NCBI RefSeq assembly: GCF_000242595.2
Contig: NC_017098.1
Location: 2,108,001-2,172,000, forward strand
Reading direction: 5' to 3'
DNA: 64,000 bases
From: Spirochaeta africana DSM 8902
Lineage (GTDB): Bacteria; Spirochaetota; Spirochaetia; DSM-27196; DSM-8902
Shown: positions 8,199 through 21,040 of the stretch, piece after piece
Numbering within the stretch: the first letter of the stretch is position 1
Layout: the number at the start of each line of letters is the position of its first letter
The notes under the pieces: model-generated
Database searches by the model: none
Told to the model about the DNA's origin: nothing
What the model saw: only the letters and a program-made list of their open reading frames with translations
Position numbers and translations under genes: made by a program

Positions 8199-8217
8199 TA
8201 CTGACGCCAATTTTATT
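8199..8217 (+). repeat. Left terminal inverted repeat of the insertion sequence
   Basis: TA plus CTGACGCCAATTTTATT, perfectly repeated in inverse at 9524-9542. This end lies on the 3' side of the transposase gene. Confidence 0.85.
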
Positions 8218-8227
8218 GTTACCCATC

Positions 8228-9463
8228 TCAGGCCAGCAGATGCGCCGCACGCCTGTCATTTCCAGGCATCCGTTTGGTAAGTACTTGCCCGGTAACAGAA
8301 TCCACTACCGGCGGGTTTTCGTACTGCTGCTGCCAGATGGCACTGATCCAGTCCGGACACCCGCGATGTACCGCATGACTGTGCAAAAATCGTCTGGTAT
8401 GTCTCAGTTTCAACATCCGTTGCGCTACTTGCGACTGACCGAACACGGCAGCCTGGGCATGCGTTGCGTCTCCTTCCGTCCTACAGCGACCGGTAATCCG
8501 CTCCGGCTTGGCAAAGGTATGCGCTCCAAGCTCAATGGTCACCCGCTGCATAGCCATATTCACCTCCCGCGCGAATCGCACTGTCTCACGCACATGATCT
8601 GCCATATCCTTGCGAATCTCCCGATCGATATAGTTCACCGGAAAGAGTGGATTCTGCCGGCTCCGTACAGCCCGGGACGATACGGTGCAATGGGTAAATC
8701 CGCCGGCATGCATCGCCTCACGAATCCAGGGAACCTTCTGTAGTGCCCTGGGATATGCGGTGTGTTGGTCGGTCCACAGCTTCCAGGGGGACGCAGGATT
8801 CGAGATGGGAATACGGTTGTACAGAGCATCAAACACCTGGGCACATGAAGCTACCAGTGATCCCCGAGCAGGTTTCCAGTGTATATCGATCATATGACGA
8901 AAAACACGCTGGGCAGCAGTCATGCGACCTTTGCGTCGCAGCACTGAGCCGGTAAATCCATATACCGAAAGACTTTCACACCCCACCAGGATGTTCAGGT
9001 GCAGCGGAAAATACTGAGACCGTACAAAAGATTCAAAACCATCAAAGGCGCAGTTCTCCCCAAGTAGATGGTCACGGCTTGCCTCCGCATAGAGTGCCAG
9101 GTAACTGCGCGCCAGTCGCTGGCACCGGTTCTTTACCAGGCGCCCGCTGGCCATGATTGCACGGCCAATCTGGCGCTGTCCTGAACTAGCTATCAGCATT
9201 GATTCGATACGATCATACTTGATCACTCGGTGCACCCAGTACTGCATCGAGAATGACTGGGTAGAAAAGGTTTTCCCGCATGCCTTACACCGAAATCTCT
9301 GTACCGTACCGTGGGCTTGGGCATAGTGGGTGCCGAACTTGATGTACCATCTATTGTTGTGCTGCTCTCCAGGGTGATGAAAAGTACAAGCAGGGTTGGT
9401 GCAGAATTCGGGGCTGCTTGTCTCCTCGGTTTCTGCCGATGCGGATACGACAAGGTTTTCCAT
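8228..9463 (-). CDS. DDE-type transposase with N-terminal zinc ribbon (IS1/IS1595-like)
   Basis: 411 residues. The N terminus has a Cys-rich DNA-binding ribbon (FCTNPACTFHH, then FRCKACGKTFST). Candidate catalytic acidic residues follow in order: Asp in FDGFESFVRS, Asp in LWTDQHTAYP, and Glu in YIDREIRKDM, with HTFAKPERITGR after it. This order resembles the IS1/IS1595 DDE superfamily; the family name is tentative. ATG 9463 has an excellent GGAGG 6 bases upstream, but this site is folded into an 8-bp hairpin. The gene fills the element, and no frameshift is visible. Confidence 0.85.
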   Translation of the reverse strand: MENLVVSASAETEETSSPEFCTNPACTFHHPGEQHNNRWYIKFGTHYAQAHGTVQRFRCKACGKTFSTQSFSMQYWVHRVIKYDRIESMLIASSGQRQIGRAIMASGRLVKNRCQRLARSYLALYAEASRDHLLGENCAFDGFESFVRSQYFPLHLNILVGCESLSVYGFTGSVLRRKGRMTAAQRVFRHMIDIHWKPARGSLVASCAQVFDALYNRIPISNPASPWKLWTDQHTAYPRALQKVPWIREAMHAGGFTHCTVSSRAVRSRQNPLFPVNYIDREIRKDMADHVRETVRFAREVNMAMQRVTIELGAHTFAKPERITGRCRTEGDATHAQAAVFGQSQVAQRMLKLRHTRRFLHSHAVHRGCPDWISAIWQQQYENPPVVDSVTGQVLTKRMPGNDRRAAHLLA

Positions 9464-9487
9464 GTATTACCTCCTATAAGGTAATAC
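9464..9487 (-). promoter_or_regulatory. Hairpin covering the transposase ribosome-binding site
   Basis: A perfect 8-bp stem, GTATTACC at 9480-9487 (minus strand reading) with GGTAATAC at 9464-9471, ends directly before ATG 9463. The GGAGG lies partly in the stem and partly in the 8-base loop. Such a fold would lower transposase translation. Confidence 0.55.
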
Positions 9488-9523
9488 AGGAAAAACCACC
9501 GTGAAAATTGGTGTAGCAAAAAA

Positions 9524-9542
9524 AATAAAATTGGCGTCAGTA
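9524..9542 (-). repeat. Right terminal inverted repeat of the insertion sequence
   Basis: Inverse of the left repeat, followed by TA. It is on the transposase 5' side and contains an A/T run (9518-9530) that the left end lacks. Confidence 0.85.
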
Positions 9543-19136: not shown

Positions 19137-19210
19137 CGGGAGCGACGGGACTTGAACCCGCGATCTCCGGCTTGACAGGCCGGCGTGTTAACCGACTACA
19201 CCACGCCCCC
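19137..19210 (-). tRNA. tRNA-Asp (anticodon GTC)
   Basis: 74 bases. Acceptor GGGGGCG / CGCTCCC (one G-T pair), discriminator G. Anticodon stem GCCGG/CCGGA-type with loop CTGTCAA gives GTC. T-arm GCGGG TTCAAGT CCCGT. CCA is not encoded. A near-consensus promoter lies 14-42 bases upstream. Confidence 0.95.
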
Positions 19211-19223
19211 TCAACGAGTACGG

Positions 19224-19252
19224 AATATACCAGAGTCGTGATTAGGTGTCAA
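19224..19252 (-). promoter_or_regulatory. Promoter of tRNA-Asp
   Basis: Minus strand: -35 TTGACA (19247-19252), exactly 17 bases, -10 TATATT (19224-19229). The start would be about 19217, seven bases before the tRNA. Confidence 0.85.
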
Positions 19253-19284: not shown

Positions 19285-19367
19285 TAGTGACGCCAGTTTT
19301 GTTGTTTCCCCTCTGAGAAAGCGACAGGAGGCCGTGGTGGCCCCAAACAACAAAACTGGCATCAGTA
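19285..19367. mobile_element. Miniature inverted-repeat element (MITE) related to the insertion sequence
   Basis: 83 bases bounded by TA. The ends are 23-base inverted repeats with two mismatches: TAGTGACGCCAGTTTTGTTG at the left, and inverted at the right TACTGATGCCAGTTTTGTTG, both followed by TTT. The outer 17 bases match the ends of the insertion sequence (CTGACGCCAATTTTATT) with three or four changes. About 37 internal bases code for nothing. It lies in the 290-base gap between tRNA-Asp and the chaperone gene, outside both promoters. Confidence 0.75.
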
Positions 19368-19428: not shown

Positions 19429-19457
19429 TTGACAAACGCCCTTGGCCGTGCTACCGT
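19429..19457 (+). promoter_or_regulatory. Promoter of the PpiD/SurA-like gene
   Basis: -35 TTGACA (19429-19434), 17 bases, -10 TACCGT (19452-19457). A leader of about 38 bases carries AAGGAA before ATG 19502. Confidence 0.55.
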
Positions 19458-19501: not shown

Positions 19502-21040
19502 ATGGCCTCAAAAAAAGATAGCAATATTTCACGATTCCCGGAAAAGGAACCTGGCAAAAAAACCGGCTCCCGCCGCACCGGTCTGTATATTTTCAGTGTC
19601 ACCGTACTGGTAATTATCGTTGTCACCTTTATTGGCGGTCCGTTGATCGGCAGTATTGGCGGTCCCCAGGCTGGCGGACGCCTGATTTTCGGGTATTACC
19701 GCCGCACGCCGATTGAGTATGCTCCCGGCAACTATTTCGCCCGGCAGCTGCAGATGCTGGAGCGCCAGTTTGCGCAAAGTGGCATGGAACAGCAGGACAC
19801 CCAGATGCAGGTGTTCCAAATCTGGCGCGGTGCGTATGACCGTACCCTGCTGCATACTGCGGTGTTGCACCAGGCTGAGCGCAGCAACATCCCGGTTAGC
19901 AGCGAACAGGTTGATCAGGCGATTGCCCGTAATCCGGAGTTTCAGGAGGATGGCCGCTTCAGCCTGCGTCGCTATGAGCGCCTGAGCCCCCAGCAGCAGT
20001 ATCAGCTGCGAGAGATAACCAGAGAAAACCTGCTGCATGAGCGGTATCTGAACGATATGTTGCAGCACAACCTTGCCGCCGACAATGAGACGGCACATTT
20101 TGCCGGCATGGCATCCCCGGAGCGACGCATCAGCTATGTTTCGTTCCGATACAATCAGTACCCTGAGGGTGAGCTCCAGGCCTTTGTCCAGGAACGACCT
20201 GAGCTTTTCCAGTCAATCGAAGCAGCCAGCATCACCCTTCGCCGTGATCAGCATAGCCGGGAGGATGCCGAGGCAATCCGTGATCGGATCCTGGCCGATG
20301 AAATCAGCTTTGGGGAAGCGGCACGCACGTACTCGGCAGACATGTTCGCCGAGATCGGTGGTGATGCCGGGGAGCTGTATTTTTATGATCTGCTGCCTGA
20401 CTACCCGTCCGAGCAGCCGCTGGAATCGGTGTTTACCACCGCAGAGGGCGAAATCGCCCCGGTGGTCGAGTCCAACTTCGGCTATGTGATCTATCGCATC
20501 AATCGGGCAGCACGTGATGCATCCCCTGATGATCAGAACATCCTGAACGAAGCCCGCAGCTATCTGCAGGATTTTGAGCGCGGCCGCATTGCAGACTACT
20601 TTGCCGGGCTCGCACAGGAGTTCGCAACCGATGCTCGCGACAACGGATTTACTGCTGCTGCATCGACCCGAGATATCGAGGTACACGAAACCGATTTCTT
20701 TGCAATCAACTATGGCGAGCTGCCCTACTTCTCTGCCCCGGCACGGAACACCGAGCTGGGCAACGTTAGCACCAACCGCAATTTCTTTGAGGCAAGTTTT
20801 GGCACCCCGCTGGACGCCGTTACCGAGCCGGTTGCGTTGCAGGACAGGGTGATTGTCCTTACCCCGGTCGAGGAGCGGGATGCTGAGTCCAGCCGCCAGG
20901 AAATGCTGTCAGGTTTTTATCCAAGTTTCGTACAGCAATCTGCGGGCACCCGGCTTGAGAATATTTTGCTTAACCCTGATCACATCGATGATCGTTTTAT
21001 GGACACCCTGTTCACACATGTACTGAATTTAGAAGGCTGA
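19502..21040 (+). CDS. Membrane-anchored PpiD/SurA-like periplasmic chaperone
   Basis: 512 residues from ATG 19502. A basic N terminus is followed by one membrane anchor (about residues 27-45), then a SurA-N/PpiD-like helical chaperone region with VDQAIARNPEFQEDGRFSLR (about 130-215). A parvulin-like domain follows (about 240-345): SFGEAARTYSADMFAEIGGD, ESVFTTAEGEIAPVVESNFG, YVIYRI. It would assist folding of exported or outer-membrane proteins. Whether the parvulin site is active is unclear. The DUF115 gene follows with a 2-base gap. Confidence 0.82.
   Translation: MASKKDSNISRFPEKEPGKKTGSRRTGLYIFSVTVLVIIVVTFIGGPLIGSIGGPQAGGRLIFGYYRRTPIEYAPGNYFARQLQMLERQFAQSGMEQQDTQMQVFQIWRGAYDRTLLHTAVLHQAERSNIPVSSEQVDQAIARNPEFQEDGRFSLRRYERLSPQQQYQLREITRENLLHERYLNDMLQHNLAADNETAHFAGMASPERRISYVSFRYNQYPEGELQAFVQERPELFQSIEAASITLRRDQHSREDAEAIRDRILADEISFGEAARTYSADMFAEIGGDAGELYFYDLLPDYPSEQPLESVFTTAEGEIAPVVESNFGYVIYRINRAARDASPDDQNILNEARSYLQDFERGRIADYFAGLAQEFATDARDNGFTAAASTRDIEVHETDFFAINYGELPYFSAPARNTELGNVSTNRNFFEASFGTPLDAVTEPVALQDRVIVLTPVEERDAESSRQEMLSGFYPSFVQQSAGTRLENILLNPDHIDDRFMDTLFTHVLNLEG

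Follow-up and report, generated by a model that had tools for sequence, protein, structure and literature searches.

A probable MITE family with ends like those of a resident insertion sequence in Spirochaeta africana

The element and its surroundings

The window analysed here is a 64,000-nt stretch covering positions 2108001-2172000 of the 3,285,855-bp single-contig genome of Spirochaeta africana. It carries a short inverted-repeat element located between a tRNA-Asp gene and a SurA-like gene, which lies downstream of the element, and a resident insertion sequence (IS) with its transposase gene (Table 1). The initial annotation had placed an 83-bp element with 23-bp near-perfect terminal repeats at this position, 33 bases from the -35 box of the tRNA promoter, and all of this was borne out; the -35 box of tRNA-Asp starts at 19252. 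A TTGACA seen by eye near 19429, where the promoter scan gave no report, may be the promoter of the SurA-like gene. We saw no evidence of a regulatory role for the element, which is probably a functionless insertion beside a tRNA promoter.

Table 1. Coordinates of the features discussed, in window positions
Feature	Position	Strand	Basis or remark
Resident IS, 1344 bp, one of 4 copies	8199..9542	-	other three copies 97.8-99.3% identical in DNA
Transposase gene, 411 aa, zinc-finger-like N-terminus and RNase-H fold (predicted)	8228..9463	-	
tRNA-Asp gene, downstream of promoter-like site 19252-19224	19137..19210	-	neighbour only
Probable MITE, 83-bp miniature inverted-repeat element	19285..19367	.	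8 genome copies; end-pattern search
Left terminal inverted repeat TAGTGACGCCAGTTTTGTTGTTT	19285..19307	+	21/23 against right repeat; first 24 bases 20/24 against IS left end
Element interior	19308..19344	.	74.5% pairwise identity, 8 copies
Right terminal inverted repeat TACTGATGCCAGTTTTGTTGTTT, read inward	19345..19367	-	end comparison
Element end, TGACGCCAGTTTTGTTGTT			
SurA-like / PPIC-type chaperone gene	19502..21040	+	neighbour only

The ends of the element resemble those of the resident IS. The left element end matches the left IS end at 20 of 24 positions, in agreement with the figure noticed originally, and the right element end matches it at 19 of 24; the right IS end matches either element end at 19 of 24. 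The further claim that both element ends resemble the 3' side of the transposase gene is borne out weakly: in a 22-bp comparison, the eight genomic copies described below have 16 ends that agree with the 3' end at 16-19 positions and with the 5' end at 16-18. A blastn match extends the left end of the window copy to 33 bp of the 3' side at 82% identity, and past these 33 bp the interior of the element matches the IS weakly. No open reading frame is confined to the 83 bp, consistent with the view that the element holds no gene, and frames of at least 100 aa overlap no part of four of the eight copies. Putative minus-strand frames overlap the window copy (125 aa) and one further copy, L005 (192 aa). 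At two of the eight copies, the TGA of the element end closes a frame that comes in from upstream, of 374 aa in L006 (L006:1502-1504) and of 233 aa in L007 (L007:1501-1503); another frame, of 137 aa, also overlaps L006.

Copies of the element in the genome

We searched the genome with the 83-bp sequence and placed eight copies with E-values of 3.1e-9 or better, a ninth row being one of the eight in reverse reading and left out of the count. The copies span 78-93 bp, and the other seven are 73-89% identical to the one in the window. A covariance model built from the eight recovers the same set and, with an E-value of 1.8e-8, one more copy, decayed, at 2459078; of two poorer matches, the one at 2896942 (E 2.5) resembles a worn copy by eye, and the one at 2075809 (E 5) bears no such resemblance. 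The genome-wide search for the terminal sequence proposed in the initial annotation, run with a 22-bp end and up to three mismatches, returned 19 matches against none in the reversed control, indicating that the end match is not due to chance. These are 14 element ends and five IS ends, the left ends of the IS being found at two mismatches.

Conservation is concentrated at the termini. Pairwise comparison of the eight copies gives an identity of 93.8% for one 20-bp end and 95.4% for the other, while the near flanks are 36% and 28% identical. The element thus combines a short length and the lack of a gene with terminal repeats common to a resident IS and with copies at unrelated sites, as is typical of miniature inverted-repeat elements (MITEs). 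Outside this genome, the search finds no match in the 40 other genomes of the order, none of which belongs to the same family, so that the search says little about age. The presence of further copies and the lack of matches in those genomes are the opposite of the picture the initial annotation had set against mobility, that of a lone hairpin fixed in distant relatives.

The partner insertion sequence and the origin of the element

The four copies of the IS are intact, and the proteins encoded by the other three are 98-100% identical to the one in the window. The transposase escapes the curated protein libraries, and annotators are likely to leave this IS group unnamed. The 411-aa protein reaches no cut-off in Pfam, and in NCBIfam none of the IS256, IS1, IS1595 and ISL3 models reaches its curated cut-off for the window protein. 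Matches below the cut-offs are to IS1, ISL3, and the IS256 and IS1/IS1595 zinc-domain models; the window protein scores 27.3 bits against the IS1 model (cut-off 100) and 16.7 against ISL3 (cut-off 180). Among 19 members of the group, with E-values up to 0.01, IS1 is matched by 16, ISL3 by 15 and the IS1/IS1595 zinc domain by eight. The AlphaFold model of the transposase has a mean pLDDT of 79. Its first structural match is to the transposase of ISCth4, which we take to be an IS256-family element. This match (PDB 6xgx, 6xg8) covers 251 residues with a Z of 12.5, an rmsd of 9.2 and a sequence identity of about 9%, and is followed by retroviral integrases and the Hermes and Tn5 transposases. Two aspartates, D141 and D232, are invariant in all 19 members, and D286 or E282 is the candidate third acidic residue. 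The predicted RNase-H fold and the conserved acidic residues together point to a DDE-type transposase.

A second group of insertion sequences in the same genome (ten copies, L013-L022) encodes transposases with 31-32% identity to that of the window IS. Its ends are of a different kind, like TTGAGT[C/G]ATAACAAAACGACACC, and their sub-terminal bases differ between near-identical copies.

A repeated regulatory RNA hairpin or terminator, fixed and held by selection on RNA structure, would account for the stable fold (z -4.2) and for the position between two divergently oriented genes. Rfam finds nothing in the window besides two tRNAs and no family in the element, and the terminator scan makes no call there. 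In the terminal stem (paired columns 12-30), all four departing cells break the pair and none compensates, so that it is the end sequence that is held rather than the hairpin. With the same ends bounding a transposase-bearing IS and the copies set in unrelated flanks, we consider selection on an RNA very unlikely. The GTAG and CGTC tetramers near the element ends raise another prospect, that the element is a palindrome of the REP type and that a tyrosine (RAYT) transposase moved it, the more so as CGTC-tagged repeats are reported from Spirochaetes (PMC3733652). Like REP palindromes, the element is a dispersed palindromic repeat. REP elements are, however, given there as 20-40 bp long and tagged at one end, whereas the copies described here measure 78-93 bp and have repeats at both ends; the tetramers are part of the IS ends themselves, and the transposase of the IS that has these end repeats in common with the element shows a predicted RNase-H fold. 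We consider a REP origin very unlikely as well.

A more serious alternative is that the element is a relic, moved long ago by an extinct IS with other ends and beyond the reach of the resident IS. Each of the 16 element ends has 3 to 6 mismatches over 22 positions to the present IS end closest to it. Divergence is also much greater among the element copies (73-89% identity to the one in the window) than among those of the IS (97.8-99.3%), which means that the mover need not have been the present IS copies. The end differences are nonetheless confined to few positions, and three of the four IS copies already have, at their left end, the G that occurs in TTTTGTT. We regard a relic of this kind as a real possibility, yet one that we lean against.

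The conserved ends, variable interiors, unrelated flanks and hairpin-breaking changes argue for a MITE with ends read by a transposase and against a fixed RNA hairpin. We are confident that the 83 bp are a non-autonomous element carrying no part of an IS of the 8199-9542 type except the ends to which the transposase would bind, and that a transposase acting in trans probably copied it to at least eight places. This enzyme would come from the IS now present or from a former version with ends reading CAGTTTTGTTGTT, and the resident enzyme would act on the ends of the element. The initial annotation had the element derived from, or mobilised by, the resident IS; mobilisation, by that IS or by a close predecessor, agrees with a dispersed gene-less family that has IS-like ends and unrelated flanks. 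Straightforward derivation from the IS copies now in the genome does not find support, because the interior ceases to align with the IS after about 33 bp. The element may instead have arisen from a related IS by internal loss or by duplication of an end.

Bacterial MITEs are described (PMC10969869) as gene-less sequences of 50-500 bp with IS-type terminal repeats, present in several copies and thought to be mobilised in trans. The element resembles them in size, in the repeats shared with an IS, in the lack of a gene and in its copy number, and differs in that its partner IS reaches no curated family cut-off and that no target duplication is visible. The element is an ordinary kind of genomic parasite, and the more interesting part is its helper, an IS from a little-described, mostly spirochaete group. 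In the open-licence literature, including PMC4511686, PMC10969869 and PMC3733652, we found no description of this IS or of the MITE family tied to it in this spirochaete lineage.

Target sites and relatives in other spirochaetes

The initial annotation described the element as TA-bounded and expected alignment of the copies to reveal a TA duplication. The window copy does have TA at both ends; as a general rule this fails, for both outer ends are TA in only four of the 12 element and IS copies of the genome, and no duplication stands out. No target duplication geometry is prominent for the elements of this genome or for the other relatives. In the second IS group of the genome, the duplication signal comes from the conserved repeats themselves. 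In this comparison, two loci, L002 and L004, had their right end placed one base out. Judged by eye at element junctions, a 4-bp nTAS duplication fails as well. In another spirochaete genus, g75, 131 distinct ends have T at 93% and A at 96%, values biased upward by a fetch pattern that mostly included TA. The TA may be duplicated or may belong to the repeat.

Relatives of the transposase were found in 21 of 392 genomes of the phylum, the present one included. A pattern scan of a species-genome collection gave 79 matches, of which 73 were confirmed as loci, 72 of them with spirochaete titles; the single motif scanned for was taken from an alignment restricted to spirochaetes, and other phyla may be under-sampled. 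The single other title belongs to a 3-kb contig of a 'Bacteroidetes' MAG (L132:2001-2684), possibly a binning error. The plasmid and phage collections contained no relative of the transposase. Several relatives have IS ends starting with TA[C/G]TG; those of one genome, G001, differ, and its 16 ends form no short pair.

The 41 genomes of the order that were searched, the present one included, hold no other member of the same family, and the search for empty sites was made in g75. Two syntenic blocks and four flank searches yielded no clean empty site. Across 260 kb compared between G404 and G410 in the two blocks, no gap of 25 bases or more occurs within aligned segments. One of 11 segment breakpoints corresponds to an element of the window-IS family present in one genome alone, and G410 differs there by about 14 bp, without a clear duplication. 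The four flank searches in G410 returned one rearranged site (about 258 bp extra), two with an IS end and one deletion derivative.

Genomes of g75 contain their own version of the IS, the ends of which are matched 236 times in G404 and 169 times in G410, against 1 and 4 in the control, offering many copies for studying target choice and end chemistry. A short inverted pair, allowing up to five mismatches, is found in 28 of 40 stretches fetched around listed ends and is absent from the other 12, and 23 of the 28 pairs span 147-149 bp. The 260 kb of G404 hold nine short pairs, against none in the reversed control. Several of the 149-bp interiors, at first sight unrelated though constant in length, look by eye like diverged relatives in both orientations. 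One site is occupied in G404 by a full 1239-bp IS and in its sister species G410 by a 129-bp internal-deletion derivative (hand count), with flanks 97% identical and 69 bp of the IS retained at 93%; the simplest reading is a deletion in place. Three 2.5-kb elements of G404 (L271, L272, L273) had looked like one transposase-dead copy moved in trans three times. Their alignment reveals three IS copies, each split by an element that we take from its two-ORF layout to be IS3-like and that sits at another place or in another orientation in each (474, 467 and about 1170); they are therefore independent insertions and no proof of trans action.

We put forward only tentatively, and think it somewhat doubtful, that the group of the window IS is a separate, largely spirochaete-restricted family without a curated model or an ordinary target duplication, that its ends have TA followed by a C or G varying among near-identical copies, that large populations of MITEs stem from it (in one genus, more than a hundred ends in each genome), and that the third base may be exchanged or rewritten at each transposition. 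Of the 131 g75 ends, 42% have a C after the TA and 57% a G. In G404 and G410 (for example L200-L239 and L266-L285) this third base alternates between C and G at both ends of otherwise similar copies. The flanks preferred in g75 are AT-rich and roughly palindromic across the insertion.
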